A stretch of DNA of 42,104 bases from positions 1 to 42,104 of the forward strand of contig NEEC01000180.1 in NCBI GenBank assembly GCA_002189035.1, in the 5' to 3' direction. The notes beneath the pieces are model-generated. The model saw only the letters and a list, made by a program, of their open reading frames with translations. It was not told where the DNA came from and searched no databases. Below are positions 15,303 to 42,104 of the stretch, piece by piece. Position numbers and translations under genes: made by a program. The first letter of the stretch is position 1. Every line of letters begins with the position of its first letter. Origin of the DNA: Utricularia gibba (taxonomy: Eukaryota > Streptophyta > Magnoliopsida > Lamiales > Lentibulariaceae).

Positions 15303-15614
15303 TTATACTTGAGGAGGTGGTCTTGGGGGGAGAGGAACCGGACAAAGGTTAGCATAGGCTTTGGTCGAAAGTTAGTTGTAGCCCGGCAAAGAAAAGTGAT
15401 GTATGTATTTACGTTCGGTTTTCGGGATGCTTACATGGTTTTTCAAGGAACAACTTCTCCTTTAGTGGCGGCCAGTCTCGCTAGGAACTTGGTCCGGGCC
15501 CCTGATTCTTTATGGCTCATGAGGACAAAAGGATGCAAATCGATGAATACAATGATGCATTTGTTTAAATTACGATATCACGTGCACCCCACATCATTTT
15601 TTCAACAACTTACT
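15303..15614 (+). repeat. Family P reference monomer (M49)
   Basis: Diagnostic words: gggagaggaacc, aaaggttagcatagg, gaaaagtgatgtatgta, gatgcttacatgg, aacaacttctcctttagtgg and the tail acttcatacttgatgagg. It is 312 bp long. The left-domain relative p has tcatggaacaac, tttactggcgg and aaattggaccggg. Confidence 0.9.
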
Positions 15615-15927: not shown

Positions 15928-16550
15928 TTATACTTGAAGAGGCGGTCTTGGGTGCACCTAGAACGGGACAAAGGTCAGGTTGGGCTTTGCCAGAGAGTTA
16001 GTTGTAGCCCGGCAAAAAGTGATGTATTTATTAACGTTCGGTTTTCGGGGTTGCCTACATGGTTTTTCAACGAAAGCTTCTCGTTTTGTGGCGGCCGCTC
16101 TCGCAGGGAACTTGGTCCGGGCCCCCGATGCTATATGGCTCATGAGGTCAACCAGATGCAAATCGATGAAGACAAGCATGCTTTTTTTTTAATTACGATA
16201 TCACGTGCAGCCCACATGATTTTTTCAACAACTTACTTTATACTTGAGGAGGCGGTCTTGGGGTGCACCTGGAACGGGATAAAGGTCAGGTTGGGCTTTG
16301 CCAGAAGTTAGTTGTAGCCCGGCAAAGAAAGTGATGTATTTATCAAGGTTCGGTTTTCGGGGTTGCCAACATGGTTTTTCAAGGAACAGCTTCTCGTTTT
16401 GTGGCGGCCAGTATCGCAAGAAACTTGGTCCGGGCGCCTGATTCTTTATGGCTCATGAGGACAAAAGTATGCAAATCGATGAAAAAAATGATGCATTTGT
16501 TTAAATTACGATATCACGTGCACCCTACATGATTTTTTCAAACACTTACT

Positions 16551-18108
16551 TTATACTTGAGGAGGTGGTCTTGGGGGGCAAGAGGAACCGGACAAAGGTC
16601 AGCTTAGGCTTGGGCCGAAAGTAAGTTGTAGCCCGTCAAAGAAAGTGATGTATTTATTAACATTCTGTTTTCGGGGCTGCCTACATGGTTTTTCAAGGAA
16701 CATATTCTCGTTTTTTGGCGGCTAGTCTCATTGGGAACCTGGTCCTAGACCCCGATTCTGTATGGCTCATGGGGTCAACCGGATGCAAATCGATGAATAC
16801 AATGATGCATTTGTTTAAATTGCGATATCACGTGCACCCTACATCATTTTTTCAACAACTTACTTATACTTGAGGAGGTGGTCTTGGGGGGGGAGAGGAA
16901 CCGGACAAAGGTTAGCATAGGCTTGGTCGAAAGTAAGTTGTAGCCCGGCAAAGAAAAGTGATGTATGTATTTACGTTCGGTTTTCGGGGATGCTTACATG
17001 GTTTTTCAAGGAACAACTTCTCCTTTAGTGGCGGCCAGTCTCGCTAGGAACTTGGTCCGGGCCCCTGATTCTTTATGGCTCATGAGGACAAAAGGATGCA
17101 AATCGATGAATACAATGATGCATTTGTTTAAATTACGATATCACGTGCACCCACATCATTTTTTCAACAACTTACTTATACTTGATGAGGTGGTCTTGGG
17201 AGGCAAGAGGAACCGGACAAAGGTCAGCTTAGGCTTGGGCCGAAAGTAAGTTATAGCCCGGCAAAAAAGTGAAGTATTTATTAACATTCGGTTTTCGGGT
17301 TGCCTACATGGTTTTTCAAGGAACAACTTCTCCTTTAGTGGCGGCCATTCTCGCTAGGAACTTGGTCCGGGCCCCTGATTCTTTATGGCTCAAGAGGACA
17401 AAAGGATGCAAATCGATGAATACAATGATGCATTTGTTTAAATTACGATATCACGTGCACCCCACATCATTTTTTCAACAACTTACTTTATACTTGAAGA
17501 GGCGGTCTTGGGGTGCACCTAGAACGGGACAAAGGTCAGGTTGGGCTTTGCCAGAGAGTTAGTTGTAGCCCGGCAAAGAAAGTGATGTATTTATTAACGT
17601 TCGGTTTTCGGGGTTGCCTACATGGTTTTTCAACGAAATGCTTCTCGTTTTGTGGCGGCCGCTCTCGCAGGGAACTTGGTCCGGGCCCCGATGCTATATG
17701 GCTCATGAGGTCAACCAGATGCAAATCGATGAAGACAAGCATGCTTTTTTTTTAATTACGATATCACGTGCAGCCCACATGATTTTTTCAACAACTTACT
17801 TTATACTTGAGGAGGCGGTCTTGGGGTGCACCTGGAACGGGATAAAGGTCAGGTTGGGCTTTGCCAGAGAGTTAGTTGTAGCCCGGCAAAGAAAGTGATG
17901 TATTTATCAAGTTCGGTTTTCGGGTTGCCCATGGTTTTTCAAGGAACAGCTTCTCGTTTTGTGGCGGCCAGTCTCGCAAGAAACTTGGTCCGGGCCCTGA
18001 TTCTTTATGGCTCATGAGGACAAAAGTATGCAAATCGATGAAAAAATGATGCATTTGTTTAAATTACGATATCACGTGCACCCTACATGATTTTTTCAAA
18101 CACTTACT
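16551..18108 (+). repeat. Cassette C4: complete L-P-Q-B-K, 1558 bp
   Basis: Monomers start at 16551, 16864, 17176, 17488 and 17801. The order and junctions match C3. The last monomer (M57, 308 bp) begins the stretch rich in single-base deletions: tatcaagttcgg near 17906, gttgcccatgg near 17925 and gggccctgattc near 17993. Confidence 0.9.
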
Positions 18109-19337
18109 TTATACTTGAGGAGGTGGTCTTGGGGGCAAGAGGAACCGGACAAAGGTCAGCTTAGGCTTGGGCCGAAAGTAAGTTGTAGCCCGGCAAAGAA
18201 AGTGATGTATTTATTAACATTCGTTTTCGGGGGCTGCCTACATGGTTTTTCAAGGAACAATTCTCGTTTTTTGGCGGCTAGTCTCATTGGGAACTGGTCC
18301 TAGACCCCGATTCTGTATGGCTCATGGGGTCAACCGGATGCAAATCGATGAATACAATGATGCATTTGTTTAAATTGCGATATCACGTGCACCCTCATTT
18401 TTTCAACAACTACTTTATACTTGAGGAGGTGGTCTTGGGGGAGAGGAACGGACAAAGGTCAGCATAGGCTTTGGCGAAAGTTAGTTGTAGCCCGGCAAAG
18501 AAAAGTGATGTATTATTAAGTTCGGTTTTCGGGGTGCCTACATGGTTTTTCAAGGAACAACTTCTCCTTTAGTGGCGGCCAGTCTCGCTAGGAACTTGGT
18601 CCGGGCCCCTGATTCTTTATGGCTCATGAGGACAAAAGGATGCAAATCGATGAATACAATGATGCATTTGTTTAAATTACGATATCACGTGCACCCACAT
18701 CATTTTTTCAACAACTTACTTTATACTTGAGAGGTGGTCTTGGGGCAAGAGGAACCGGACAAAGGTCAGCTTAGGCTTGGCCGAAAGTAAGTTGTAGCCC
18801 GGCAAAGAAAGTGATGTATTTATTAACGTTCGGTTTTCGGGTTGCCTACATGGTTTTTCAAGGAACACTTCTCGTTTTGTGGCGGCCAGTCTCGCTAGGA
18901 ACTTGGTCCGGGCCCCGATTCTTTATGGCTCATGAGGACAAAAGGATGCAAATCGATGAATACAATGATGCATTTGTTTAAATTACGATATCACGTGCAC
19001 CCCACATCATTTTTTCAACAACTTACTTTATACTTGAGAGGCGGTCTTGGGGTGCACCTGGAACGGGACAAAGGTCAGCTTAGGCTTGGGCCGAAAGTAA
19101 GTTGTAGCCCGGCAAAGAAAGTGATGTATTTATTAACGTTCGGTTTTCGGGGTTGCCAACATGGTTTTTCAAGGAACAGCTTCTCGTTTTGTGGCGGCCA
19201 GTCTCGCAAGAAACTTGGTCCGGGCCCTGATTCTTTATGGCTCATGAGGACAAAAGATGCAAATCGATGAAAAAATGATGCATTTGTTTTAAATTACGAT
19301 ATCACGTGCACCCACATGATTTTTTCAAACACTTACT
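18109..19337 (+). repeat. Cassette C5: L-P-Q-K, no B
   Basis: Monomers start at 18109, 18415, 18721 and 19028. No NotI-bearing B is present, though M61 opens with the B/K-type gtgcacctggaacggg. All four monomers are short (306-310 bp), with deletions at family-variable columns, for example gaactggtcc at 18291 and gaacacttctcg near 18863. The sequence is likely averaged from several copies. Confidence 0.75.
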
Positions 19338-20564
19338 TTATACTTGAGGAGGTGGTCTTGGGGGCAAGAGGAACCGGACAAAGGTCAGCTTAGGCTTGGG
19401 CCGAAAGTAAGTTGTAGCCCGCAAAGAAAGTGATGTATTTATTAACGTTCGTTTTCGGGTGCCTACATGGTTTTTCAAGGAACAATTCTCGTTTTTTGGC
19501 GGCCAGTCTCGCTGGGAACTTGGTCCGACCCGATTCTTATGGCTCATGAGGTCAACCGGATGCAAATCGATGAATACAATGATGCATTTGTTTAAATTAC
19601 GATATCACGTGCACCCTACATCATTTTTTCAACAACTACTTTATACTTGAGGAGGTGGTCTTGGGGGGAGAGGAACCGGACAAAGGTCAGCTAGGCTTTG
19701 GCGAAAGTAAGTTGTAGCCCGGCAAAGAAAGTGATGTATTTTTACGTTCGGTTTTCGGGTTGCCTACATGGTTTTTCAAGGAAAACTTCTCGTTTTGTGG
19801 CGGCCAGTCTCGCTAGGAACTTGGTCCGGGCCCCTGATTCTTTATGGCTCATGAGGACAAAGGATGCAAATCGATGAATACAATGATGCATTTGTTTAAA
19901 TTACGATATCACGTGCACCCCACATCATTTTTTCAACAACTTACTTTATACTTGAGAGGCGGTCTTGGGGTGCACCTAGAACGGGACAAAGGTCAGGTTG
20001 GGCTTTGCCAGAGAGTTAGTTGTAGCCCGGCAAAGAAAGTGATGTATTTATTAACGTTCGGTTTTCGGGGTTGCCTACATGGTTTTTCAAGAAAGCTTCT
20101 CGTTTTGTGGCGGCCGCTCTCGCAGGGAACTTGGTCCGGGCCCCCGATGCTATATGGCTCATGAGGTCAACCAGATGCAAATCGATGAAGACAAGCATGC
20201 TTTTTTTTAATTACGATATCACGTGCAGCCCACATGATTTTTTCAACAACTTACTTTATACTTGAGGAGGCGGTCTTGGGGTGCACCTGGAACGGGATAA
20301 AGGTCAGCTTAGGGGGCCGAAAGTAAGTTGTAGCCCGGCAAAGAAAGTGATGTATTTATTAACGTTCGGTTTTCGGGGTTGCCTACATGGTTTTTCAAGG
20401 AACAGCTTCTCGTTTTGTGGCGGCCAGTCTCGCAAGGAACTTGGTCCGGGCCCTGATTCTTTATGGCTCATGAGGACAAAAGGATGCAAATCGATGAAAA
20501 AAATGATGCATTTGTTTAAATTACGATATCACGTGCACCCTACATGATTTTTTCAACACTTACT
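19338..20564 (+). repeat. Cassette C6: L-P-B-K
   Basis: Monomers start at 19338, 19641, 19946 and 20256. M62 (303 bp) mixes L and P features: aacaattctcg and ttttttggcggccagtctcg. B has caagaaagcttctcg, short of both parental forms. Q is not present as a separate monomer. Confidence 0.75.
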
Positions 20565-21803
20565 TTATACTTGAGGAGGTGGTCTTGGGGGGCAAGAGGA
20601 ACCGGACAAAGGTCAGCTTAGGCTTGGCCGAAAGTAAGTTGTAGCCCGGCAAAGAAAGTGATGTATTTATTAACATTCGTTTTCGGGGTGCCTACATGGT
20701 TTTTCAAAGGAACATATTCTCGTTTTTTGGCGGCTAGTCTCATTGGGAACTGGTCCTAGACCCCGATTCTGTATGGCTCATGGGGTCAACCGGATGCAAA
20801 TCGATGAATACAATGATGCATTTGTTTAAATTACGATATCACGTGCACCCCACATCATTTTTTCAACAACGTACTTTATACTTGAGGAGGTGGTCTTGGG
20901 GGGAGAGGAACCGGACAAAGGTCAGCTAGGCTTTGGCGAAAGTAAGTTGTAGCCCGGCAAAGAAAAGTGATTGTATTACGTTCGGTTTTCGGGTTGCCTA
21001 CATGGTTTTTCAAGGAACAACTTCTCCTTTAGTGGCGGCCAGTCTCGCTAGGAACTTGGTCCGGGCCCCTGATTCTTTATGGCTCAAGAGGACAAAAGGA
21101 TGCAAATCGATGAATACAATGATGCATTTGTTTAAATTACGATATCACGTGCACCCACATCATTTTTTCAACAACTTACTTTATACTTGAAGAGGCGGTC
21201 TTGGGGTGCACCTAGAACGGGACAAAGGTCAGGTTGGGCTTTGCCAGAGAGTTAGTTGTAGCCCGGCAAAGAAAGTGATGTATTTATTAACGTTCGGTTT
21301 TCGGGGTTGCCTACATGGTTTTTCAACGAAAAGCTTCTCGTTTTGTGGCGGCCGCTCTCGCAGGGAACTTGGTCCGGGCCCCCGATGCTATATGGCTCAT
21401 GAGGTCAACCAGATGCAAATCGATGAAGACAAGCATGCTTTTTTTTAATTACGATATCACGTGCAGCCCACATGATTTTTTCAACAACTTACTTTATACT
21501 TGAGGAGGCGGTCTTGGGGTGCACCTGGAACGGGATAAAGGTCAGCTTAGGCTTGGGCCGAAGTAAGTTGTAGCCCGGCAAAGAAAGTGATGTATTTATC
21601 AAGGTTCGGTTTTCGGGTTGCCACATGGTTTTTCAAGGAACAGCTTCTCGTTTTGTGGCGGCCAGTCTCGCAAGGAACTTGGTCCGGGCCCTGATTCTTT
21701 ATGGCTCATGAGGACAAAAGATGCAAATCGATGAAAAAAATGATGCATTTTGTTTAAATTACGATATCACGTGCACCCTACATGATTTTTTCAACAACTT
21801 ACT
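20565..21803 (+). repeat. Cassette C7: L-P/Q-B-K
   Basis: Monomers start at 20565, 20876, 21181 and 21494. M67 is P on the left and Q on the right (ctcaagagg, cttgaagagg), so one monomer appears to be lost by fusion. M67 is 305 bp and contains gattgtattacg near 20969, shorter than either parent. Confidence 0.75.
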
Positions 21804-23663
21804 TTATACTTGAGGAGGTGCTCTTGGGGGGCAAGAGGAACCGGACAAAGGTCAGCTTAGGCTTAGCGAAGTAAGTTGTAGCCCGGCAAAGAAAGTGATG
21901 TATTTATTAACATTCAGTTTTCGGGGGCTGCCTACATGGTTTTTCAAGGAACATATTCTCGTTTTTTGGCGGCTAGTCTCATTGGGAACCTGGTCCTAGA
22001 CCCCGATTCTGTATGGCTCATGGGGTCAACCGGATGCAAATCGATGAATACAATGATGCATTTGTTTAAATTACGATATCACGTGCACCCCACATCATTT
22101 TTTCAACAACTACTTATACTTGAGAGGTGGTCTTGGGGGCAAGAGGAACCGGACAAGGTCAGCTTAGGCTTGGGCGAAAGTAAGTTGTAGCCCGGCAAAA
22201 AAGTGAGTATTTATTAACGTTCGGTTTTCGAGGTTGCCTACATGGTTTTTCAAGGAACAACTTCTCCTTTAGTGGCGGCCAGTCTCGCTAGGAACTTGGT
22301 CCGGGCCCCTGATTCTTTATGGCTCAAGGACAAAGGATGCAAATCGATGAATACAATGATGCATTTGTTTAAATTACGATATCACGTGCACCCCACATCA
22401 TTTTTTCAACAACTTACTTTATACTTGAAGAGGCGGTCTTGGGGTGCACCTAGAACGGGACAAAGGTCAGGTTGGGCTTTGCCAGAGAGTTAGTTGTAGC
22501 CCGGCAAAGAAAGTGATGTATTTATTAACGTTCGGTTTTCGGGTTGCCTACATGGTTTTTCAACGAAATGCTTCTCGTTTTGTGGCGGCCGCTCTCGCAG
22601 GGAACTTGGTCCGGGCCCCGATGCTATATGGCTCATGAGGTCAACCAGATGCAAATCGATGAAGACAAGCATGCTTTTTTTTAATTACGATATCACGTGC
22701 ACCCACATGATTTTTTCAACAACTTACTTTATACTTGAGGAGGCGGTCTTGGGATGCACCTGGAACGGGATAAAGGTCAGGTTGGGCTTTGCCAGAGAGT
22801 TAGTTGTAGCCCGGCAAAGAAAGTGTTGTATTTATTAACGTTCGGTTTTCGGGGTTGCCTACATGGTTTTTCAACGAAAAGCTTCTCGTTTTGTGGCGGC
22901 CGCTCTCGCAGGGAACTTGGTCCGGGCCCCGATGCTATATGGCTCATGAGGTCAACCAGATGCAAATCGATGAAGACAAGCATGCTTTTTTTAATTACGA
23001 TATCACGTGCAGCCCACATGATTTTTTCAACAACTTACTTTATACTTGAGGAGGCGGTCTTGGGGTGCACCTGAACGGGACAAAGGTCAGGTTGGGCTTT
23101 GCCAGAGAGTTAGTTGTAGCCCGGCAAAGAAAGTGTTGTATTTATCAAGGTTCGGTTTTCGGGTTGCCAACATGGTTTTTCAAGGAACAGCTTCTCGTTT
23201 TGTGGCGGCCGCTCTCGCAGGGAACTTGGTCCGGGCCCCCGATGCTATATGGCTCATGAGGTCAACCAGATGCAAATCGATGAAGACAAGCATGCTTTTT
23301 TTTTAATTACGATATCACGTGCAGCCCACATGATTTTTTCAACAACTTACTTTATACTTGAGGAGGCGGTCTTGGGGTGCACCTGGAACGGGATAAAGGT
23401 CAGCTTAGGCTGGGCCGAAAGTAAGTTGTAGCCCGGCAAAGAAAGTGATGTATTTATCAAGTTCGGTTTTCGGGGTTGCCAACATGGTTTTTCAAGGAAC
23501 AGCTTCTCGTTTTGTGGCGGCCAGTATCGCAAGAAACTTGGTCCGGGCGCCTGATTCTTTATGGCTCATGAGGACAAAAGTATGCAAATCGATGAAAAAA
23601 ATGATGCATTTGTTTAAATTACGATATCACGTGCACCCTACATGATTTTTTCAAACACTTACT
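21804..23663 (+). repeat. Cassette C8: L/P-Q-B-B-B'-K
   Basis: Monomers start at 21804, 22114, 22419, 22729, 23040 and 23352. M70 is L on the left with a P-type tail (aaattacgat, ccccacatc), and opens with gtgctcttgggg as M9 and M94 do. This cassette is the first half of second-order unit 1. Confidence 0.85.
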
Positions 23664-25220
23664 TTATACTTGAGGAGGTGGTCTTGGGGGGCAAGAGGAA
23701 CCGGACAAAGGTCAGCTTAGGCTTGGGCCGAAAGTAAGTTGTAGCCCGTCAAAGAAAGTGATGTATTTATTAACATTCAGTTTTCGGGGGCTGCCTACAT
23801 GGTTTTTCAAGGAACATATTCTCGTTTTTTGGCGGCTAGTCTCATTGGGAACCTGGTCCTAGACCCCGATTCTGTATGGCTCATGGGGTCAACCGGATGC
23901 AAATCGATGAATACAATGATGCATTTGTTTAAATTGCGATATCACGTGCACCCTACATTATTTTTTCAACAACGTACTTTATACTTGAGGAGGTGGTCTT
24001 GGGGGGGAGAGGAACCGGACAAAGGTTAGCATAGGCTTTGGTCGAAAGTTAGTTGTAGCCCGGCAAAGAAAGTGATGTATGTATTTACGTTCGGTTTTCG
24101 GGGATGCTTACATGGTTTTTCAAGGAACAACTTCTCCTTTAGTGGCGGCCAGTCTCGCTAGGAACTTGGTCCGGGCCCCTGATTCTTTATGGCTCATGAG
24201 GACAAAAGCATGCAAATCGATGAATACAATGATGCATTTGTTTAAATTACGATATCACGTGCACCCCACATTTTTTCAACAACTTACTTCATACTTGATG
24301 AGGTGGTCTTGGGGGCAAGAGGAACCGGACAAAGGTCAGCTTAGGCTTGGGCCGAAAGTAAGTTATAGCCCGGCAAATAAAGTGATGTATTTATTAACGT
24401 TCGGTTTTCGGGTTGCCTACATGGTTTTTCAAGGAACAACTTCTCCTTTAGTGGCGGCCAGTCTCGCTAGGAACTTGGTCCGGGCCCCTGATTCTTTATG
24501 GCTCAAGAGGACAAAAGGATGCAAATCGATGAATACAATGATGCATTTGTTTAAATTACGATATCACGTGCACCCCACATCATTTTTTCAACAACTTACT
24601 TATACTTGAAGAGGCGGTCTTGGGTGCACCTAGAACGGGACAAAGGTCAGGTTGGGCTTTGCCAGAGAGTTAGTTGTAGCCCGGCAAAGAAAGTGATGTA
24701 TTTATTAAGTTCGGTTTTCGGGGTTGCTACATGGTTTTTCAAGGAAAGCTTCTCGTTTTGTGGCGGCCGCTCTCGCAGGGAACTTGGTCCGGGCCCCCGA
24801 TGCTATATGGCTCATGAGGTCAACCAGATGCAAATCGATGAAGACAAGCATGCTTTTTTTAATTACGATATCACGTGCAGCCCACATGATTTTTTCAACA
24901 ACTTACTTTATACTTGAGGAGGCGGTCTTGGGGTGCACTGGAACGGGATAAAGGTCAGCTTAGGCTTGGGCCGAAAGTAAGTTGTAGCCCGGCAAAGAAA
25001 GTGATGTATTTATCAAGGTTCGGTTTTCGGGGTTGCCAACATGGTTTTTCAAGGAACAGCTTCTCGTTTTGTGGCGGCCAGTATCGCAAGGAACTTGGTC
25101 CGGGCCCTGATTCTTTATGGCTCATGAGGACAAAAGTATGCAAATCGATGAAAAAAATGATGCATTTGTTTTAAATTACGATATCACGTGCACCCTACAT
25201 GATTTTTTCAACAACTTACT
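23664..25220 (+). repeat. Cassette C9: complete L-P-Q-B-K, 1557 bp
   Basis: Monomers start at 23664, 23979, 24289, 24600 and 24908. L has the private tail ctacattatttttt, and P has aaaagcatgcaaatcg. Cassette C11 shares both. This is the second half of second-order unit 1. Confidence 0.9.
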
Positions 25221-26771
25221 TTATACTTGAGGAGGTGGTCTTGGGGGGCAAGAGGAACCGGACAAAGGTCAGCTTAGGCTTGGCCGAAAGTAAGTTGTAG
25301 CCCGGCAAAGAAAGTGATGTATTTATTAACATTCGTTTTCGGGGTGCCTACATGGTTTTTCAAGGAACATATTCTCGTTTTTTGGCGGCTAGTCTCATTG
25401 GGAACTGGTCCGACCCCCGATTCTGTATGGCTCATGGGTCAACCGGATGCAAATCGATGAATACAATGATGCATTTGTTTAAATTACGATATCACGTGCA
25501 CCCCACATCATTTTTTCAACAACTTACTTTATACTTGAGAGGTGGTCTTGGGGGCAAAGGAACCGGACAAAGGTCAGCTTAGGCTTGGGCCGAAAGTAAG
25601 TTGTAGCCCGGCAAAGAAAGTGAAGTATTTATTAACGTTCGGTTTTCGGGTTGCCTACATGGTTTTTCAAGGAACAACTTCTCCTTTTGTGGCGGCCAGT
25701 CTCGCTAGGAACTTGGTCCGGGCCCCTGATTCTTTATGGCTCATGAGGACAAAAGGATGCAAATCGATGAATACAATGATGCATTTGTTTAAATTACGAT
25801 ATCACGTGCACCCCACATCATTTTTTCAACAACTTACTTTATACTTGAAGAGGCGGTCTTGGGGTGCACCTAGAACGGGACAAAGGTCAGGTTGGGCTTT
25901 GCCAGAGAGTTAGTTGTAGCCCGGCAAAGAAAGTGATGTATTTATTAACGTTCGGTTTTCGGGTTGCCTACATGGTTTTTCAAGAAAGCTTCTCGTTTTG
26001 TGGCGGCCGCTCTCGCAGGGAACTTGGTCCGGCCCCGATTCTTATGGCTCATGAGGTCAACCAGATGCAAATCGATGAACAATGATGCATTTTTTTTAAA
26101 TTACGATATCACGTGCACCCCACATCATTTTTTCAACAACTTACTTTATACTTGAGGAGGCGGTCTTGGGTGCACCTGGAACGGGACAAAGGTCAGGTTG
26201 GGCTTTGCCAGAAGTTAGTTGTAGCCCGCAAAGAAAGTGATGTATTTATTAACGTTCGGTTTTCGGGGTTGCCTACATGGTTTTTCAAGAAAAGCTTCTC
26301 GTTTTGTGGCGGCCGCTCTCGCAGGGAACTTGGTCCGGGCCCCCGATGCTATATATGGCTCATGAGGTCAACCAGATGCAAATCGATGAAGACAAGCATG
26401 CTTTTTTTTTTAATTACGATATCACGTGCAGCCCACATGATTTTTTCAACAACTTACTTTATACTTGAGGAGGCGGTCTTGGGGTGCACCTGAAACGGGA
26501 TAAAGGTCAGGTTGGGCTTTGCCAGAGAGTTAGTTGTAGCCCGGCAAAGAAAGTGATGTATTTATTAACGTTCGGTTTTCGGGGTTGCCTACATGGTTTT
26601 TCAACGAAAGCTTCTCGTTTTGTGGCGGCCGCTCTCGCAGGGAACTTGGTCCGGGCCCCCGATGCTATATGGCTCATGAGGTCAACCAGATGCAAATCGA
26701 TGAAGACAAGCATGCTTTTTTTTTAATTACGATATCACGTGCAGCCCACATGATTTTTTCAACAACTTACT

Positions 26772-27085
26772 TTATACTTGAGGAGGCGGTCTTGGGATGC
26801 ACCTGGAACGGGATAAAGGTCAGGTTGGGCTTTGCCAGAGAGTTAGTTGTAGCCCAGCAAAGAAAGTGTTGTATTTATTAACGTTCGGTTTTCGGGGTTG
26901 CCTACATGGTTTTTCAACGAAAAGCTTCTCGTTTTGTGGCGGCCGCTCTCGCAGGGAACTTGGTCCGGGCCCCCGATGCTATATGGCTCATGAGGTCAAC
27001 CAGATGCAAATCGATGAAGACAAGCATGCTTTTTTTTTAATTACGATATCACGTGCAGCCCACATGATTTTTTCAACAACTTACT
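26772..27085 (+). repeat. Family B reference monomer (M86), NotI-bearing
   Basis: Diagnostic words: acctggaacgggat, caggttgggctttgcc, agagagttag, caacgaaaagcttctcg (contains HindIII), gcggccgctctcgcaggg (contains NotI), gatgctatatggc, gaggtcaaccag, gaagacaagcatgc plus a T run, and cagcccacatg. It is 314 bp. B is the most divergent family and appears only right of 11 kb. Confidence 0.92.
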
Positions 27086-27399
27086 TTATACTTGAGGAGG
27101 CGGTCTTGGGGTGCACCTGAAACGGGATAAAGGTCAGGTTGGGCTTTGCCAGAGAGTTAGTTGTAGCCCGGCAAAGAAAGTGTTGTATTTATCAAGGTTC
27201 GGTTTTCGGGGTTGCCAACATGGTTTTTCAAGGAACAGCTTCTCGTTTTGTGGCGGCCGCTCTCGCAGGGAACTTGGTCCGGGCCCCCGATGCTATATGG
27301 CTCATGAGGTCAACCAGATGCAAATCGATGAAGACAAGCATGCTTTTTTTTTAATTACGATATCACGTGCAGCCCACATGATTTTTTCAACAACTTACT
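27086..27399 (+). repeat. Family B' reference monomer (M87), K/B hybrid
   Basis: The centre is K-like (tatcaaggttcgg, gccaacatgg, caaggaacagcttctcg), while the start and the 3' half from the NotI site onward are B. B' usually sits between the B tract and K. Its repeated position suggests one ancestral hybrid that was then amplified, rather than repeated independent exchange. Confidence 0.85.
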
Positions 27400-27712
27400 T
27401 TATACTTGAGGAGGCGGTCTTGGGGTGCACCTGGAACGGGATAAAGGTCAGCTTAGGCATGGGCCGAAAGTAAGTTGTAGCCCGGCAAAGAAAGTGATGT
27501 ATTTATCAAGTTCGGTTTTCGGGGTTGCCAACATGGTTTTTCAAGGAACAGCTTCTCGTTTTGTGGCGGCCAGTATTGCAAGAAACTTGGTCCGGGCGCC
27601 TGATTCTTTATGGCTCATGAGGACAAAAGTATGCAAATCGATGAAAAAAATGATGCATTTGTTTAAATTACGATATCACGTGCACCCTACATGATTTTTT
27701 CAAACACTTACT
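27400..27712 (+). repeat. Family K reference monomer (M88)
   Basis: Diagnostic words: gccaacatgg, ggaacagcttctcg, ggccagtat followed by tgcaag (usually cgcaag), cgggcgcctgattc, aaaagtatgc, gatgaaaaaaatgatg and ttcaaacacttac. This copy has tatcaagttcgg, one g short of the usual tatcaaggttcgg. The left-domain k1 and k2 families are related and differ by gcgccctgtatcgcatgg. Confidence 0.88.
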
Positions 27713-29277
27713 TTATACTTGAGGAGGTGGTCTTGGGGGCAAGAGGAACCGGACAAAGGTCAGCTTAGGCTTGGGCCGAAAGTAAGTTGTAGCCCGTCAA
27801 AGAAAGTGATGTATTTATTAACATTCAGTTTTCGGGGGCTGCCTACATGGTTTTTCAAGGAACATATTCTCGTTTTTTGGCGGCTAGTCTCATTGGGAAC
27901 CTGGTCCTAACCCCGATTCTGTATGGCTCATGGGGTCAACCGGATGCAAATCGATGAATACAATGATGCATTTGTTTAAATTGCGATATCACGTGCACCC
28001 TACATTATTTTTTCAACAACGTACTTTATACTTGAGGAGGTGGTCTTGGGGGGGGAGAGGAACCGGACAAAGGTTAGCATAGGCTTTGGTCGAAAGTTAG
28101 TTGTAGCCCGGCAAAGAAAAGTGATGTATGTATTTACGTTCGGTTTTCGGGGATGCTTACATGGTTTTTCAAGGAACAACTTCTCCTTTAGTGGCGGCCA
28201 GTCTCGCTAGGAACTTGGTCCGGGCCCCTGATTCTTTATGGCTCATGAGGACAAAAGCATGCAAATCGATGAATACAATGATGCATTTGTTTAAATTACG
28301 ATATCACGTGCACCCCACATCATTTTTTCAACAACTTACTTTATACTTGATGAGGTGGTCTTGGGAGGCAAGAGGAACCGGACAAAGGTCAGCTTAGGCT
28401 TGGGCCGAAAGTAAGTTATAGCCCGGCAAATAAAGTGAAGTATTTATTAACGTTCGGTTTTCGAGGTTGCCTACATGGTTTTTCAAGGAACAACTTCTCC
28501 TTTAGTGGCGGCCAGTCTCGCTAGGAACTTGGTCCGGGCCCCTGATTCTTTATGGCTCAAGAGGACAAAAGGATGCAAATCGATGAATACAATGATGCAT
28601 TTGTTTAAATTACGATATCACGTGCACCCCACATCATTTTTTCAACAACTTACTTTATACTTGAAGAGGCGGTCTTGGGGTGCACCTAGAACGGGACAAA
28701 GGTCAGGTTGGGCTTTGCCAGAGAGTTAGTTGTAGCCCGGCAAAGAAAGTGATGTATTTATTAACGTTCGGTTTTCGGGGTTGCTACATGGTTTTTCAAG
28801 GAAAGCTTCTCGTTTTGTGGCGGCCGCTCTCACAGGGAACTTGGTCCGGGCCCCGATGCTATATGGCTCATGAGGTCAACCAGATGCAAATCGATGAAGA
28901 CAAGCATGCTTTTTTTTTAATTACGATATCACGTGCAGCCCACATGATTTTTCAACAACTTACTTTATACTTGAGGAGGCGGTCTTGGGGTGCACCTGGA
29001 ACGGCATAAAGGTCAGCTTAGGCTTGGGCCGAAAGTAAGTTGTAGCCCGCAAAGAAAGTGATGTATTTATCAAGGTTCGGTTTTCGGGGTTGCCAACATG
29101 GTTTTTCAAGGAACAGCTTCTCGTTTTGTGGCGGCCAGTATCGCAAGGAACTTGGTCCGGGCGCCTGATTCTTTATGGCTCATGAGGACAAAAGTATGCA
29201 AATCGATGAAAAAAATGATGCATTTGTTTAAATTACGATATCACGTGCACCCTACATGATTTTTTCAACAACTTACT
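27713..29277 (+). repeat. Cassette C11: complete L-P-Q-B-K, 1565 bp
   Basis: Monomers start at 27713, 28026, 28341, 28655 and 28965. It shares private variants with C9 (ctacattatttttt in L, aaaagcatgc in P), so the two are recent duplicates 4,049 bp apart. In L, gtcctaaccccg near 27905 lacks one base of the usual ctagacccc. Second half of second-order unit 2. Confidence 0.9.
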
Positions 29278-31136: not shown

Positions 31137-32691
31137 TTATACTTGAGGAGGTGGTCTTGGGGGCAAGAGGAACCGGACAAAGGTCAGCTTAGGCTTGGGC
31201 CGAAAGTAAGTTGTAGCCCGCAAAGAAAGTGATGTATTTATTAACATTCAGTTTTCGGGGGCTGCCTACATGGTTTTTCAAGGAACATATTCTCGTTTTT
31301 TGGCGGCTAGTCTCATTGGGAACTGGTCCTAGACCCCGATTCTGTATGGCTCATGGGGTCAACCGGATGCAAATCGATGAATACAATGATGCATTTGTTT
31401 AAATTGCGATATCACGTGCACCCTACATATTTTTCAACAACGTACTTTATACTTGAGGAGGTGGTCTTGGGGGGGAGAGGAACGGACAAAGGTTAGCATA
31501 GGCTTTGGTCGAAAGTTAGTTGTAGCCCGGCAAAGAAAAGTGATGTATGTATTTAACGTTCGGTTTTCGGGGTGCTTACATGGTTTTTCAAGGAACAACT
31601 TCTCCTTTAGTGGCGGCCAGTCTCGCTAGGAACTTGGTCCGGGCCCCTGATTCTTATGGCTCATGAGGACAAAAGATGCAAATCGATGAATACAATGATG
31701 CATTTGTTTAAATTACGATATCACGTGCACCCCACATCATTTTTTCAACAACTTACTTTATACTTGAGAGGTGGTCTTGGGGGCAAGAGGAACCGGACAA
31801 AGGTCAGCTTAGGCTTGGGCCGAAAGTAAGTTGTAGCCCGGCAAATAAAGTGATGTATTTATTAACGTTCGGTTTTCGGGTTTGCCTACATGGTTTTTCA
31901 AGGAACAACTTCTCCTTTAGTGGCGGCCAGTCTCGCTAGGAACTTGGTCCGGGCCCCTGATTCTTTATGGCTCAAGAGGACAAAAGGATGCAAATCGATG
32001 AATACAATGATGCATTTGTTTAAATTACGATATCACGTGCACCCACATCATTTTTTCAACAACTTACTTTATACTTGAAGAGGCGGTCTTGGGGTGCACC
32101 TAGAACGGGACAAAGGTCAGGTTGGGCTTTGCCAGAGAGTTAGTTGTAGCCCGGCAAAGAAAGTGATGTATTTATTAACGTTCGGTTTTCGGGGTTGCCT
32201 ACATGGTTTTTCAAGGAAAGCTTCTCGTTTTGTGGCGGCCGCTCTCACAGGAACTTGGTCCGGGCCCCCGATGCTATATGGCTCATGAGGTCAACCAGAT
32301 GCAAATCGATGAAGACAAGCATGCTTTTTTTTTAATTACGATATCACGTGCAGCCCACATGATTTTTTCAACAACTTACTTTATACTTGAGGAGGCGGTC
32401 TTGGGGTGCACCTGGAACGGATAAAGGTCAGCTTAGGCTTGGGCCGAAAGTAAGTTGTAGCCCGGCAAAGAAAGTGATGTATTTATCAAGGTTCGGTTTT
32501 CGGGGTTGCCAACATGGTTTTTCAAGGAACAGCTTCTCGTTTTGTGGCGGCCAGTATCGCAAGGAACTTGGTCCGGGCCCTGATTCTTTATGGCTCATGA
32601 GGACAAAAGATGCAAATCGATGAAAAAAATGATGCATTTGTTTAAATTACGATATCACGTGCACCCTACATGATTTTTTCAACAACTTACT
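31137..32691 (+). repeat. Cassette C13: complete L-P-Q-B-K, 1555 bp
   Basis: Monomers start at 31137, 31447, 31758, 32069 and 32381. Several deletions at variable columns appear (aaaagatgc near 31672, cttgagagg near 31764, gcacccacatc near 32039). Second half of second-order unit 3. Confidence 0.87.
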
Positions 32692-34238
32692 TTATACTTG
32701 AGGAGGTGGTCTTGGGGGGCAAGAGGAACCGGACAAAGGTCAGCTTAGGCTTGGCCGAAAGTAAGTTGTAGCCCGGCAAAGAAAGTGATGTATTTATTAA
32801 CATTCAGTTTTCGGGGGCTGCCTACATGGTTTTTCAAGGAACATATTCTCGTTTTTTGGCGGCTAGTCTCATTGGGAACTTGGTCCTAGACCCCGATTCT
32901 GTATGGCTCATGGGTCAACCGGATGCAAATCGATGAATACAATGATGCATTTGTTTAAATTACGATATCACGTGCACCCTACATCATTTTTTCAACAACT
33001 ACTTTATACTTGAGGAGGTGGTCTTGGGGGGGAGAGGAACCGGACAAAGGTTAGCATAGGCTTTGGCGAAAGTAAGTTGTAGCCCGGCAAAGAAAAGTGA
33101 TGTATTATTTACGTTCGGTTTTCGGGGATGCCTACATGGTTTTTCAAGGAACAACTTCTCCTTTAGTGGCGGCCAGTCTCGCTAGGAACTTGGTCCGGGC
33201 CCCTGATTCTTTATGGCTCATGAGGACAAAAGGATGCAAATCGATGAATACAATGATGCATTTGTTTAAATTACGATATCACGTGCACCCCACATTTTTT
33301 TCAACAACTTACTTTATACTTGAAGAGGCGGTCTTGGGGTGCACCTAGAACGGGACAAAGGTCAGGTTGGGCTTTGAGTTAGTTGTAGCCCGGCAAAGAA
33401 AGTGATGTATTTATTAACGTTCGGTTTTCGGGGTTGCCTACATGGTTTTTCAACGAAAAGCTTCTCGTTTTGTGGCGGCCGCTCTCGCAGGGAACTTGGT
33501 CCGGGCCCCGATGCTATATGGCTCATGAGGTCAACCAGATGCAAATCGATGAAGACAAGCATGCTTTTTTTTTAATTACGATATCACGTGCACCCACATG
33601 ATTTTTTCAACAACTTACTTTATACTTGAGGAGGCGGTCTTGGGGTGCACCTGGAACGGGATAAAGGTCAGCTTAGGCTTGGCCGAAAGTAAGTTGTAGC
33701 CCGGCAAAGAAAGTGATGTATTTATTAACGTTCGGTTTTCGGGGTTGCCACATGGTTTTTCAAGGAACAGCTTCTCGTTTTGTGGCGGCCGCTCTCGCAG
33801 GGAACTTGGTCCGGGCCCCGATGCTATATGGCTCATGAGGTCAACCAGATGCAAATCGATGAAGACAAGCATGCTTTTTTTTTAATTACGATATCACGTG
33901 CACCCACATGATTTTTTCAACAACTTACTTTATACTTGAGGAGGCGGTCTTGGGGTGCACCTGGAACGGGATAAAGGTCAGCTTAGGCTTGGCCGAAAGT
34001 AAGTTGTAGCCCGGCAAAGAAAGTGATGTATTTATTAAGGTTCGGTTTTCGGGGTTGCCAACATGGTTTTTCAAGGAACAGCTTCTCGTTTTGTGGCGGC
34101 CAGTCTCGCAAGGAACTTGGTCCGGGCCCCGATTCTTTATGGCTCATGAGGACAAAGATGCAAATCGATGAAAAAATGATGCATTTGTTTAAATTACGAT
34201 ATCACGTGCACCCTACATGATTTTTTCAACAACTTACT
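32692..34238 (+). repeat. Cassette C14: L-P-B-B'-K
   Basis: Monomers start at 32692, 33004, 33314, 33620 and 33930. P ends with the Q-type tail cttgaagagg, suggesting a P/Q fusion. The first B has gggctttgagttag near 33370, six bases shorter than the usual gctttgccagagagttag; M114 and M119 share this. Confidence 0.82.
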
Positions 34239-36693
34239 TTATACTTGAGGAGGTGGTCTTGGGGGGCAAGAGGAACGGACAAAGGTCAGCTTAGGCTTGG
34301 GCCGAAAGTAAGTTGTAGCCCGGCAAAGAAAGTGATGTATTTATTAACATTCGTTTTCGGGGTGCCTACATGGTTTTTCAAGGAACATTTCTCGTTTTTT
34401 GGCGGCAGTCTCAGGGAACTTGGTCCGACCCCGATTCTTATGGCTCATGGGGTCAACCGGATGCAAATCGATGAATACAATGATGCATTTGTTTAAATTA
34501 CGATATCACGTGCACCCTACATCATTTTTTCAACAACTACTTTATACTTGAGGAGGTGGTCTTGGGGGAGAGGAACCGGACAAAGGTCAGCTAGGCTTTG
34601 GCGAAAGTAAGTTGTAGCCCGGCAAAGAAAGTGATGTATTATTACGTTCGGTTTTCGGGGTGCTTACATGGTTTTTCAAGGAACAACTTCTCCTTTAGTG
34701 GCGGCCAGTCTCGCTAGGAACTTGGTCCGGGCCCCTGATTCTTTATGGCTCATGAGGACAAAAGATGCAAATCGATGAAAAAAATGATGCATTTGTTTAA
34801 ATTACGATATCACGTGCACCCTACATGATTTTTTCAACAACTTACTTTATACTTGAGGAGGTGGTCTTGGGGGCAAGAGGAACCGGACAAAGGTCAGCTT
34901 AGGCTTGGGCCGAAAGTAAGTTGTAGCCCGGCAAAGAAAGTGATGTATTTATTAACGTTCGTTTTCGGGGTGCCTACATGGTTTTTCAAGGAACATTTCT
35001 CGTTTTTGGCGGCTAGTCTCATTGGGAACCTGGTCCTAGACCCCGATTCTGTATGGCTCATGGGGTCAACCGGATGCAAATCGATGAATACAATGATGCA
35101 TTTGTTTAAATTACGATATCACGTGCACCCTACATCATTTTTTCAACAACGTACTTTATACTTGAGGAGGTGGTCTTGGGGGGAGAGGAACCGGACAAAG
35201 GTTAGCATAGGCTTTGGTCGAAAGTAAGTTGTAGCCCGGCAAAGAAAGTGATGTATTATTACGTTCGGTTTTCGGGGTGCCTACATGGTTTTTCAAGGAA
35301 CAACTTCTCCTTTAGTGGCGGCCAGTCTCGCTAGGAACTTGGTCCGGGCCCCTGATTCTTTATGGCTCATGAGGACAAAAGGATGCAAATCGATGAATAC
35401 AATGATGCATTTGTTTAAATTACGATATCACGTGCACCCCACATCATTTTTTCAACAACTTACTTTATACTTGAGAGGCGGTCTTGGGGTGCACCTAGAA
35501 CGGGACAAAGGTCAGGTTGGGCTTTGAGTTAGTTGTAGCCCGGCAAAGAAAGTGATGTATTTATTAACGTTCGGTTTTCGGGTTGCCTACATGGTTTTTC
35601 AAGAAAAGCTTCTCGTTTTGTGGCGGCCGCTCTCGCAGGGAACTTGGTCCGGGCCCCCGATGCTATATGGCTCATGAGGTCAACCAGATGCAAATCGATG
35701 AAGACAATGCTTTTTTTTTAATTACGATATCACGTGCAGCCCACATGATTTTTTCAACAACTTACTTTATACTTGAGGAGGCGGTCTTGGGGTGCACCTG
35801 GAACGGGATAAAGGTCAGGTTGGGCTTTGCCAGAGAGTTAGTTGTAGCCCGGCAAAGAAAGTGTTGTATTTATTAACGTTCGGTTTTCGGGGTTGCCTAC
35901 ATGGTTTTTCAAGAAAGCTTCTCGTTTTGTGGCGGCCGCTCTCGCAGGGAACTTGGTCCGGGCCCCGATGCTATATGGCTCATGAGGTCAACCAGATGCA
36001 AATCGATGAAGACAAGCATGCTTTTTTTTTAATTACGATATCACGTGCAGCCCATGATTTTTTCAACAACTTACTTTATACTTGAGGAGGCGGTCTTGGG
36101 GTGCACCTGGAACGGGATAAAGGTCAGCTTAGGCTTGGGCCGAAAGTAAGTTGTAGCCCGGCAAAGAAAGTGATGTATTTATAAGGTTCGGTTTTCGGGG
36201 TTGCCAACATGGTTTTTCAAGGAACAGCTTCTCGTTTTGTGGCGGCCGTCTCGCAGGGAACTTGGTCCGGGCCCCGATTCTATATGGCTCATGAGGTCAA
36301 CCAGATGCAAATCGATGAAGACAAGCATGCTTTTTTTTAATTACGATATCACGTGCACCCACATGATTTTTTCAACAACTTACTTTATACTTGAGGAGGC
36401 GGTCTTGGGGTGCACCTGGAACGGGACAAAAGGTCAGCTTAGGCTTGGGCCGAAAGTAAGTTGTAGCCCGGCAAAGAAAGTGATGTATTTATTAACGTTC
36501 GGTTTTCGGGGTTGCCTACATGGTTTTTCAAGGAACAGCTTCTCGTTTTGTGGCGGCCAGTCTCGCAGAAACTTGGTCCGGGCCCGATTCTTTATGGCTC
36601 ATGAGGACAAAAGATGCAAATCGATGAAAAATGATGCATTTGTTTAAATTACGATATCACGTGCACCCTACATGATTTTTTCAACAACTTACT
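34239..36693 (+). repeat. Cassette C15: L-P-L-P-B-B-B'-K
   Basis: Monomers start at 34239, 34542, 34847, 35156, 35465, 35767, 36076 and 36385. The L-P pair is doubled. This is among the most deletion-rich stretches (monomers of 302-309 bp). M116 lost the NotI site through ggccgtctcgc near 36245, intermediate between ggccgctctcgc (B) and ggccagtctcgc. Confidence 0.75.
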
Positions 36694-38230
36694 TTATACT
36701 TGAGGAGGTGGTCTTGGGGGGCAAGAGGAACCGGACAAAGGTCAGCTTAGGCTTGGGCCGAAAGTAAGTTGTAGCCCGGCAAAGAAAGTGATGTATTTAT
36801 TAACGTTCGTTTTCGGGGCCTACATGGTTTTTCAAGGAACAATTCTCGTTTTTTGGCGGCCAGTCTCAGGGAACTTGGTCCGCCCCGATTCTTTATGGCT
36901 CATGAGGACAAAGGATGCAAATCGATGAATACAATGATGCATTTGTTTAAATTACGATATCACGTGCACCCCACATCATTTTTTCAACAACTTACTTTAT
37001 ACTTGAAGAGGCGGTCTTGGGGTGCAAGAACGGGACAAAGGTCAGGTTGGGCTTTGAGTTAGTTGTAGCCCGGCAAAGAAAGTGATGTATTTATTAACGT
37101 TCGGTTTTCGGGGTTGCCTACATGGTTTTTCAACGAAAAGCTTCTCGTTTGTGGCGGCCGCTCTCGCAGGGAACTTGGTCCGGGCCCCCGATGCTATATG
37201 GCTCATGAGGTCAACCAGATGCAAATCGATGAAACAAGCATGCTTTTTTTTTAATTACGATATCACGTGCACCCACATGATTTTTTCAACAACTTACTTT
37301 ATACTTGAGGAGGCGGTCTTGGGGTGCACCTGGAACGGGATAAAGGTCAGGTTGGGCTTTGCCAGAAGTTAGTTGTAGCCCGGCAAAGAAAGTGATGTAT
37401 TTATTAACGTTCGGTTTTCGGGGTTGCCTACATGGTTTTTCAAGAAAAGCTTCTCGTTTTGTGGCGGCCGCTCTCGCAGGAACTTGGTCCGGGCCCCCGA
37501 TGCTATATGGCTCATGAGGTCAAAGATGCAAATCGATGAAGACAAGCATGCTTTTTTTTTAATTACGATATCACGTGCAGCCTACATGATTTTTTCAACA
37601 ACTTACTTTATACTTGAGGAGGCGGTCTTGGGGTGCACCTGGAACGGGACAAAGGTCAGCTTAGGCTTGGCCGAAAGTAAGTTGTAGCCCGGCAAAGAAA
37701 GTGATGTATTTATCAAGGTTCGGTTTTCGGGGTTGCCACATGGTTTTTCAAGGAACAGCTTCTCGTTTTGTGGCGGCCGCTCTCGCAGGGAACTTGGTCC
37801 GGGCCCCGATGCTATATGGCTCATGAGGTCAACCAGATGCAAATCGATGAAGACAAGCATGCTTTTTTTTTAATTACGATATCACGTGCAGCCCACATGA
37901 TTTTTTCAACAACTTACTTTATACTTGAGGAGGCGGTCTTGGGGTGCACCTGGAACGGGATAAAGGTCAGCTTAGGCTGGGCCGAAAGTAAGTTGTAGCC
38001 CGGCAAAGAAAGTGATGTATTTATCAAGTTCGGTTTTCGGGGTTGCCAACATGGTTTTTCAAGGAACAGCTTCTCGTTTTGTGGCGGCCAGTATCGCAAG
38101 AAACTTGGTCCGGGCGCCTGATTCTTTATGGCTCATGAGGACAAAAGTATGCAAATCGATGAAAAAAATGATGCATTTGTTTAAATTACGATATCACGTG
38201 CACCCTACATGATTTTTTTAAACACTTACT
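36694..38230 (+). repeat. Cassette C16: L/P-B-B-B'-K
   Basis: Monomers start at 36694, 36997, 37299, 37608 and 37919. M118 (303 bp) is L-like on the left and P/Q-like on the right (ctcatgaggac, cttgaagagg), with cggggcctacatgg near 36814. The first B again has the gctttgagttag form. M121-M122 are clean. Confidence 0.8.
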
Positions 38231-40716
38231 TTATACTTGAGGAGGTGGTCTTGGGGGCAAGAGGAACCGGACAAAGGTCAGCTTAGGCTTGGGCCGAAAG
38301 TAAGTTGTAGCCCGGCAAAGAAAGTGATGTATTTATTAACATTCAGTTTTCGGGGCTGCCTACATGGTTTTTCAAGGAACATATTCTCGTTTTTTGGCGG
38401 CTAGTCTCATTGGGAACCTGGTCCTAGACCCCGATTCTGTATGGCTCATGGGTCAACCGGATGCAAATCGATGAATACAATGATGCATTTGTTTAAATTG
38501 CGATATCACGTGCACCCTACATCATTTTTTCAACAACTACTTTATACTTGAGGAGGTGGTCTTGGGGGGAGAGGAACCGGACAAAGGTTAGCATAGGCTT
38601 TGGCGAAAGTAAGTTGTAGCCCGGCAAAGAAAAGTGATATATGTATTTACGTTCGGTTTTCGGGGTGCCTACATGGTTTTTCAAGGAACAACTTCTCCTT
38701 TAGTGGCGGCCAGTCTCGCTAGGAACTTGGTCCGGGCCCCTGATTCTTTATGGCTCATGAGGACAAAAGGATGCAAATCGATGAATACAATGATGCATTT
38801 GTTTAAATTACGATATCACGTGCACCCTACATCATTTTTTCAACAACTACTTTATACTTGAGGAGGTGGTCTTGGGGGGAGAGGAACCGGACAAAGGTTA
38901 GCATAGGCTTTGGCGAAAGTTAGTTGTAGCCCGGCAAAGAAAAGTGATGTATGTATTTACGTTCGGTTTTCGGGGATGCTTACATGGTTTTTCAAGGAAC
39001 AACTTCTCCTTTAGTGGCGGCCAGTCTCGCTAGGAACTTGGTCCGGGCCCCTGATTCTTTATGGCTCATGAGGACAAAAGGATGCAAATCGATGAATACA
39101 ATGATGCATTTGTTTAAATTACGATATCACGTGCACCCCACATCATTTTTTCAACAACTTACTTTATACTTGAAGAGGCGGTCTTGGGTGCACCTAGAAC
39201 GGGACAAAGGTCAGTTGGGCTTTGCCAGAGAGTTAGTTGTAGCCCGGCAAAGAAAGTGATGTATTTATTAACGTTCGGTTTTCGGGGTTGCCTACATGGT
39301 TTTTCAACGAAAAGCTTCTCCTTTGTGGCGGCCGCTCTCGCAGGAACTTGGTCCGGGCCCCGATGCTATATGGCTCATGAGGTCAACCAGATGCAAATCG
39401 ATGAAGACAAGCATGCTTTTTTTTTAATTACGATATCACGTGCAGCCCACATGATTTTTTCAACAACTTACTTTATACTTGAGGAGGCGGTCTTGGGGTG
39501 CACCTGGAACGGATAAAGGTCAGGTTGGGCTTTGCCAGAGAGTTAGTTGTAGCCCGGCAAAGAAAGTGATGTATTTATTAACGTTCGGTTTTCGGGGTTG
39601 CCTACATGGTTTTTCAACGAAAAGCTTCTCGTTTGTGGCGGCCGCTCTCGCAGGAACTTGGTCCGGGCCCCCGATGCTATATGGCTCATGAGGTCAACCA
39701 GATGCAAATCGATGAAGACAAGCATGCTTTTTTTTTAATTACGATATCACGTGCAGCCCACATGATTTTTTCAACAACTTACTTTATACTTGAGGAGGCG
39801 GTCTTGGGGTGCACCTGGAACGGGATAAAGGTCAGGTTGGGCTTTGCCAGAGAGTTAGTTGTAGCCCGGCAAAGAAAGTGTTGTATTTATTAACGTTCGG
39901 TTTTCGGGGTTGCCTACATGGTTTTTCAACGAAAAGCTTCTCGTTTTGTGGCGGCCGCTCTCGCAGGAACTTGGTCCGGGCCCCCGATGCTATATGGCTC
40001 ATGAGGTCAACCAGATGCAAATCGATGAAGACAAGCATGCTTTTTTTTTAGTTACGATATCACGTGCAGCCTAGATGATTTTTTCAACAACTTACTTTAT
40101 ACTTGAGGAGGCGGTCTTGGGGTGCACCTGGAACGGGATAAAGGTCAGCTTAGGCTTGGGCCGAAAGTAAGTTGTAGCCCGGCAAAGAAAGTGATGTATT
40201 TATCAAGGTTCGGTTTTCGGGGTTGCCAACATGGTTTTTCAAGGAACAGCTTCTCGTTTTGTGGCGGCCGCTCTCGCAGGGAACTTGGTCCGGGCCCCCG
40301 ATGCTATATGGCTCATGAGGTCAACCAGATGCAAATCGATGAAGACAAGCATGCTTTTTTTTTAATTACGATATCACGTGCAGCCCACATGATTTTTTCA
40401 ACAACTTACTTTATACTTGAGGAGGCGGTCTTGGGGTGCACCTGGAACGGATAAAGGTCAGCTTAGGCATGGGCCGAAAGTAAGTTGTAGCCCGGCAAAG
40501 AAAGTGATGTATTTATCAAGGTTCGGTTTTCGGGGTTGCGAACATGGTTTTTCAAGGAACTTCTCGTTTTGTGGCGGCCAGTCTCGCAAGAAACTTGGTC
40601 CGGGCCCTGATTCTTATGGCTCATGAGGACAAAAGATGCAAATCGATGAAAAAATGATGCATTTGTTTAAATTACGATATCACGTGCACCCTACATGATT
40701 TTTTCAACAACTTACT
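38231..40716 (+). repeat. Cassette C17: L-P-P-B-B-B-B'-K
   Basis: Monomers start at 38231, 38542, 38852, 39164, 39473, 39784, 40097 and 40411. Two P monomers follow L; the second ends with the Q tail cttgaagagg. The four B-type monomers are well preserved, apart from gcaggaac (one g short) in M126-M128. Confidence 0.82.
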
Positions 40717-42104
40717 TTATACTTGAGGAGGTGGTCTTGGGGGGCAAGAGGAACCGGGACAAAGGTCAGCTTAGGCTTGGCCGAAAGTAAGTTGTAGCCC
40801 GGCAAAGAAAGTGATGTATTTATTAACATTTCGTTTTCGGGGTGCCTACATGGTTTTTCAAGGAACATATTCTTCGTTTTTTGGCGGCCAGTCGCATTGG
40901 GAACTGGTCCGACCCCGATTCTGTATGGCTCATGGGTCAACCGGATGCAAATCGATGAAACAATGATGCATTTGTTTAAATTACGATATCACGTGCACCC
41001 TACATCATTTTTTCAACAACTTACTTTATACTTGAGGAGGTGGTCTTGGGGGGGGAGAGGAACCGGACAAAGGTCAGCATAGGCTTTGGCCGAAAGTAAG
41101 TTGTAGCCCGGCAAAGAAAGTGATGTATTTATTAACGTTCGGTTTTCGGGGTGCCTACATGGTTTTTCAAGGAACAACTTCTCCTTTAGTGGCGGCCAGT
41201 CTCGCTAGGAACTTGGTCCGGGCCCTGATTCTTTATGGCTCATGAGGACAAAAGGATGCAAATCGATGAATACAATGATGCATTTGTTTAAATTACGATA
41301 TCACGTGCACCCTACATCATTTTTTCAACAACTACTACTTTATACTTGAGGAGGTGGTCTTGGGGGGAGAGGAACCGGACAAAGGTCAGCATTAGGCTTT
41401 GGTCGAAAGTTAGTTGTAGCCCGGCAAAGAAAGTGATGTATTATTACGTTCGGTTTTCGGGGTGCCTACATGGTTTTTCAAGGAACAACTTCTCGTTTTG
41501 TGGCGGCCAGTCTCGCTAGGAACTTGGTCCGGGCCCCTGATTCTTTATGGCTCATGAGGACAAAAGGATGCAAATCGATGAATACAATGATGCATTTGTT
41601 TAAATTACGATGTGCACCCCACACATCATTTTTTCAACAACTTACTTTATACTTGAGGAGGCGGTCTTGGGGGGCAAGAACGGACAAAGGTCAGCTTGGC
41701 TTGCCGAAGTAAGTTGTAGCCCGGCAAAGAAAGTGATGTATTATTAACGTTCGGTTTTCGGGGTTGCCTACATGGTTTTTCAAGGAAAACTTCTCGTTTT
41801 GTGGCGGCCGTCTCGCAGGAACTTGGTCCGGGCCCCCGATTCTTTATGGCTCATGAGGTCAAAAGATGCAAATCGATGAATACAATGATGCATTTGTTTA
41901 AATTACGATATCACGTGCACCCACATCATTTTTTCAACAACTTACTTTATACTTGAGAGGCGGTCTTGGGGTGCACCTGAACGGGACAAAGGTCAGGTTG
42001 GGCTTTGCCAGAGAGTTAGTTGTAGCCCGGCAAAAAAGTGATGTATTTATTAACGTTCGGTTTTCGGGGTTGCCTACATGGTTTTTCAAGGAAAGCTTCT
42101 CGTT
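40717..42104 (+). repeat. Cassette C18: L-P-P-mixed-B, cut by window end
   Basis: Monomers start at 40717, 41026, 41340, 41647 and 41947. M134 is only 300 bp and mixes Q, K and B features (ggccgtctcgcagg, gattctttatgg). M133 lacks the CACGTG box (attacgatgtgcacc near 41604). M135 is a type B start truncated at the window edge. Confidence 0.78.

Follow-up and report, generated by a model that had tools for sequence, protein, structure and literature searches.

The window, the whole 42,104-base stretch analysed here, corresponds to positions 1-42104 of contig C22 in a genome of 100,091,633 bases and 516 contigs. From end to end it is filled by a head-to-tail tandem array, for which TRF gives a 313-bp period and a copy number of 135.4. 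The whole contig (1..42104; all coordinates in the window are on the + strand) is thus a single satellite array of a 313-bp monomer in ~135 copies, with several families in a higher-order pattern. The clustering of monomers on which this pattern is based gives family sets that differ before and after ~11 kb. Monomer families and their order are not the same in 1-11000 as in 11000-42104, which would mean two separate domains of the array or else a misjoined contig. In a 4,001-base portion of the window, no Rfam family reached its gathering score.

Among the matches listed, related copies of the satellite are found on contigs C477, C21, C15, C18, C235, C39 and C475. One 19-base satellite word has 2,549 exact matches genome-wide, corresponding to roughly 0.8 Mb of assembled array if there is one match per monomer, and the copy number of the satellite in the genome is at least about 2,500. 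The 313-bp satellite is thus abundant. For putative centromeric regions in U. gibba, PMC8333044 describes satellite repeats as absent. The genome is very probably that of Utricularia gibba, in its PacBio/HGAP assembly. Its mitochondrial COX1 frame, on contig C515, has two contiguous cysteines (CC); PMC11688529 gives this state for all Utricularia and one Genlisea section, so it is not peculiar to U. gibba. A 136-aa histone H3 of plant type is present as well. According to PMC5793159, the U. gibba genome was assembled with HGAP from 88x PacBio, with pre-assembly of the reads followed by Quiver polishing. Five of 18 contigs checked have lengths that are exact multiples of 2,500 (C1, 8,500,000; C2, 6,192,500; C409, 2,492,500; C505, 3,452,500; C515, 267,500); such lengths may come from cuts made at the edges of processing windows, whether in the original assembly or in the copy analysed.

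Monomer length varies along the contig. The stretch 1..17800 is mostly clean, with a mean monomer of 312.66 bp (56 monomers) and one monomer of ≤308 bp, at 12,936. Further along, two affected stretches have mean monomers of 307.55 bp (18101..21840, 11 monomers, with many single-base gaps) and 306.75 bp (34100..38200, 12 monomers), and a clean stretch lying within the affected half has a mean of 313.88 bp (26200..28800, 8 monomers). The fall in length to ~308 and ~307 bp from 313.5 bp, reported in the preliminary description of this DNA, is borne out by these measurements. The gaps are bunched in particular stretches and monomers. On C8, adjacent matches of the 19-base word are just 281 and 286 bp apart (e.g. 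38464-38745 and 43069-43355), so this contig may be affected still more strongly.

Six pairs of parental forms had been described as collapsing to six short forms. All six pairs and all six short forms exist, within 3 bases of where they had been placed. The short form gaactgg (parents gaacctgg and gaacttgg) is found six times in the window, at 18291..18297 and also at 20747, 25402, 29462, 31320 and 40901. Both aacaactac (parents aacaacgtac and aacaacttac; 18405..18413, also 19631, 22105, 32994, 34532, 38532, 38842 and 41327) and cttgagagg (parents cttgaggagg and cttgaagagg; 18726..18734, also 19033, 19951, 22119, 25534, 31763, 35470 and 41952) have eight instances. Three instances were found of gtattattacg (34636..34646, also 35253 and 41438), which, as read from the letters, is a common subsequence of gtatgtatttacg and gtatttattaacg. 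There is one instance of aacacttc (parents aacagcttc and aacaacttc; 18864..18871) and two of ggccgtctcg (parents ggccgctctcg and ggccagtctcg; 36244..36253, also 41806). In the latter, the g common to both parents survives, and this two-base case fits the common-subsequence rule. All 28 instances of the short forms are at or beyond 18,291, with none in the first 17.8 kb of the window. Parental forms do occur there, with 12 of the 17 gaacctgg sites lying before 17.8 kb. The assembled ratio of gaactgg, gaacctgg and gaacttgg is 6:17:93.

A total of 511 monomers were cut from nine stretches on seven contigs, using a stepwise edit-distance anchor and nhmmer hits. Gaps were listed for 510 of these (one 333-bp monomer was left out), each compared with its nearest full-length monomer, the references being 245 monomers of 312-315 bp. 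The single-base counts exclude the 248 multi-base events among the total of 1,520. Each site was assigned to a class according to the length of its homopolymer run and the presence or absence of a family-variable column in that run. The preliminary description held that single-base deletions sit exactly at columns where families differ, and proposed comparing gap rates in family-variable and invariant columns. In C22 beyond 17.8 kb, this comparison gives single-base gaps at 85/3,294 variable vs 5/7,337 invariant sites for runs of 1, and at 33/1,393 vs 0/1,891 for runs of 2, with a variable/invariant ratio, stratified by run length, of 12.2. Before 17.8 kb, the corresponding values are 11/2,392 vs 7/5,422 (runs of 1) and 3/1,102 vs 5/1,369 (runs of 2), with a stratified ratio of 3.2. 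Deletions are therefore strongly enriched at family-variable columns, although "exactly" is slightly too strong, as 17 of the 209 single-base deletions beyond 17.8 kb are in runs that contain no variable column.

Long-read assemblies can retain ordinary homopolymer indel errors without any mixing of copies, and the gap rate here does increase with run length. Runs of ≥4 bases hold 55 of the 209 deletions beyond 17.8 kb; the variable/invariant ratio in runs of 4 is just 1.24, and some of the long-run gaps are surely errors of this type. However, at run-1 sites, where slippage cannot act, the variable rate in this part of the contig is 38x the invariant rate. Variable exceeds invariant at every run length from 1 to 6 beyond 17.8 kb (before 17.8 kb, runs of 2 are an exception), and an unmixed simulated pile of reads with CLR-like errors yields no deletions (see below). 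Leftover homopolymer errors are thus a very improbable source of the short forms.

The enrichment is not limited to the window, being found also in short monomers on C477 (stratified ratio 6.2) and C21 (7.1). Full-length monomers are enriched too (4.3), at much lower gap rates. With variable columns defined on other contigs only, C22 beyond 17.8 kb has gaps at 84/3,238 vs 6/7,393 sites (Fisher p 1.5e-36) and a Mantel-Haenszel ratio of 11.6 (monomer bootstrap 95% 7.4-21.8, 77 monomers), the nearest references in this test still being drawn from all contigs. A random-deletion control, with five deletions in each of 120 full-length monomers taken through the same pipeline, gives a ratio of 1.25. 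In short monomers, at runs of 1-2, the gap rate climbs unevenly with allele balance: it is 19/12,742 at MAF<0.005, flat at ~0.6% for 0.005-0.05, then 44/2,493, 109/3,531 and 120/2,555 in successive classes, with a dip to 20/977 at 0.3-0.4 and a rise to 170/3,220 at MAF≥0.4.

If the gaps come from mixing, a short form should fit inside both of its parents. This was examined in 11-base windows with local polymorphism, with gaps placed at random within them giving the expectation. Of the 154 windows from C22 beyond 17.8 kb, 122 have a gapped form that two real haplotypes share as a subsequence, against an expectation of 44.5; for all short monomers the figures are 457 of 624, against 187.7. Windows with a further difference were dropped, as were monomorphic windows (8 in C22 beyond 17.8 kb, 32 in all short monomers). 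Parent pairs were inferred for 121 of 210 short monomers, leaving out those that had <3 gap events or differed from the nearest monomer by <2 mismatches. At columns that distinguish the two inferred parents, the gap rate is 319/2,779 (11.5%), compared with 1,870/21,651 (8.6%) for random partners of like divergence, so that specificity is modest. At columns variable elsewhere the rate is 472/13,373, and at invariant columns 162/21,626. Mixing of three or more families could account for the weak parent specificity.

The preliminary description had read the short forms as a consensus built from different copies. This reading is supported by the variable-column enrichment and the common-subsequence signature, together with the simulated graph consensus and the non-recurrence of short monomers among the 511 cut (both below). 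It gains nothing from the inferred parent pairs or from the likelihood model described below, and it is less well matched by the milder enrichment in full-length monomers and in the first 17.8 kb. Judged from the assembled sequence, it is highly probable that the short forms are consensus artefacts produced from reads of different satellite copies, and as biology they are most likely not a real feature. Reads of ~10 kb from different copies would have been piled together because the copies share ~90% of their sequence and single reads are too short to span the array. At read correction or draft building, a graph (DAG) consensus would then turn a mismatch into a deletion plus an insertion, which is how pbdagcon encodes mismatches. 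Where families differ and one allele equals a neighbouring base, both families could share a path that skips the column. With no clear allele majority the shorter path would win, and the contig would receive a common subsequence of the parents that need be present in no molecule. Polishing would presumably have left these gaps in place.

Reads were simulated from eight pairs of real monomers and passed to a simplified DAG consensus modelled on pbdagcon, in which mismatches are written as indels, gaps are pushed right and a path is scored as edge count minus half coverage. With CLR-like errors, a 50:50 mix has a mean loss of 5.88 bp, with deletions at 52/318 differing vs 2/2,184 other positions, in addition to 15 substitutions at differing positions and 7 insertions. 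With the same errors a 60:40 mix loses 1.75 bp and an unmixed pile 0 bp. With substitution-dominated errors, the unmixed pile is shortened by 1.25 bp (10 deletions: 4/318 and 6/2,184) and the 50:50 mix by 10.5 bp. As shortening also occurs under this second profile, even in the unmixed pile, the decisive element is the graph step and not the CLR profile. The simulation reproduces the size and place of the gaps and, in part, their context.

A Quiver-like likelihood model was also tried as a source of the short forms. With assumed CLR rates and six contexts, where the model could choose a parent, a single-base deletion of a parent or the short form, one parent won in every replicate and the short form never did. 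With varied scoring in five contexts, the short form won only at two doublet contexts (cttgagagg in up to 6/6; gaactgg in up to 4/6, and in 1/6 at unsoftened scoring), and never at the other three. The likelihood model mostly fails to make short forms, which points to the graph-consensus step and not to polishing.

At isolated two-allele sites, the deletion rate is lower where neither allele equals a neighbouring base (14/1,238, 1.1%) than where an allele does (141/2,930, 4.8%) or in doublets (21/403, 5.2%). For allele-equals-neighbour, doublet and neither classes, respectively, the DAG simulation gives 14/64, 18/60 and 4/60 at 50:50, 12/64, 10/60 and 0/60 at 60:40, and 5/64, 2/60 and 0/60 at 70:30. 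The neither class ranks lowest in each of the three mixes, whereas the other two classes exchange places between mixes. The observed classes comprise 18, 5 and 6 columns, and in the last two a single column provides 13/21 and 7/14 of the gaps, respectively, so the context evidence is supportive rather than decisive.

True satellite variants spread through copying; errors do not. Among the 511 monomers cut, 14 sequences recur exactly (31 monomers), and all of these are 312-314 bp long. None of the 261 monomers of <312 bp recurs exactly among the 511, which are a sample of a genome with at least about 2,500 copies. Monomers of ≤310 bp have means of 4.0 to 8.9 deletion events, depending on length class, and about one inserted base. 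The 33 shortest monomers have means of 8.9 deletion events vs 1.1 inserted bases.

Real short monomers could arise if families mispaired during gene conversion or unequal exchange and repair then dropped a mismatched base. Such repair would act at family-variable columns too, and it could perhaps be aided by the deletion-biased repair of Lentibulariaceae, which the relevant sections of PMC11688529 propose as a cause of small genomes, linking the bias to COX mutation. However, arrays amplify by copying, and yet no exact recurrence of a monomer of <312 bp is seen in the sample. The gaps are clustered in certain stretches and monomers, and invariant run-1 sites are nearly untouched (5/7,337). The dependence on an allele being equal to a neighbouring base is what alignment ambiguity predicts. 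Thus, repair of this kind is highly unlikely to have made the short monomers. The more specific proposal that the gaps are real because interfamily heteroduplexes were repaired by loss of the mismatched base in a deletion-prone plant, with exchange leaving one-base scars, is extremely improbable. That the short forms are further true, old families with indels can practically be dismissed: some true indels are likely, as the reference monomers themselves range from 312 to 315 bp, but the short monomers carry many deletion events for each inserted base, show no exact recurrence within the sample of 511, and fit as common subsequences of other haplotypes much more often than by chance.

A consensus error of the general kind favoured here has precedents. 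In the collapsed PacBio assembly of T. brucei Lister 427, the passages of PMC8445201 on nearby allelic variants describe a shift in homology by which reads are misaligned and INDEL errors introduced. As proposed here, two similar templates collapsed into one consensus acquire INDEL errors. Those templates are two alleles of a gene, whereas here there are many satellite copies and a measurable signature of column and context. For Canu, the sections of PMC5411767 on repeats and consensus state that mis-assigned repeat reads can be tolerated when they form a small fraction, since they are outvoted in consensus correction, implying failure when the fraction is large, and that the contig consensus uses a modified pbdagcon. 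The deletion signature is not described in those sections, and the assembler differs from the HGAP inferred here. Together the T. brucei and Canu reports show that the kind of error is already known. In the literature covered, mostly from outside subscription journals, only such near cases were found, and no report of a deletion signature of column and context in a satellite.

The artefact reading calls for caution against taking these gaps as biology. Monomer lengths, mutation rates and exchange histories drawn from the affected stretches of C22, C21 and C477 would be wrong. A test for mixed repeat copies can be made without reads, by holding run length constant and comparing the single-base gap rates of variable and invariant columns, and by comparing variable sites that have an allele equal to a neighbour with those that do not.

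The satellite is interrupted on two of the related contigs by a 1.14-kb insert. Two copies are found within the array of C477, at ~103.8-105.0 and 108.2-109.4 kb (L016 7846-8983 and 12234-13372), and two more within that of C15 (L022 1165-2300 and 5219-6358). The four copies are 99.3-99.9% identical and spaced 4.1 to 4.4 kb apart, and in one an open frame matches copia-type gag (PF14223, E 2.3e-27). The insert looks like a retroelement fragment that was amplified together with the array.
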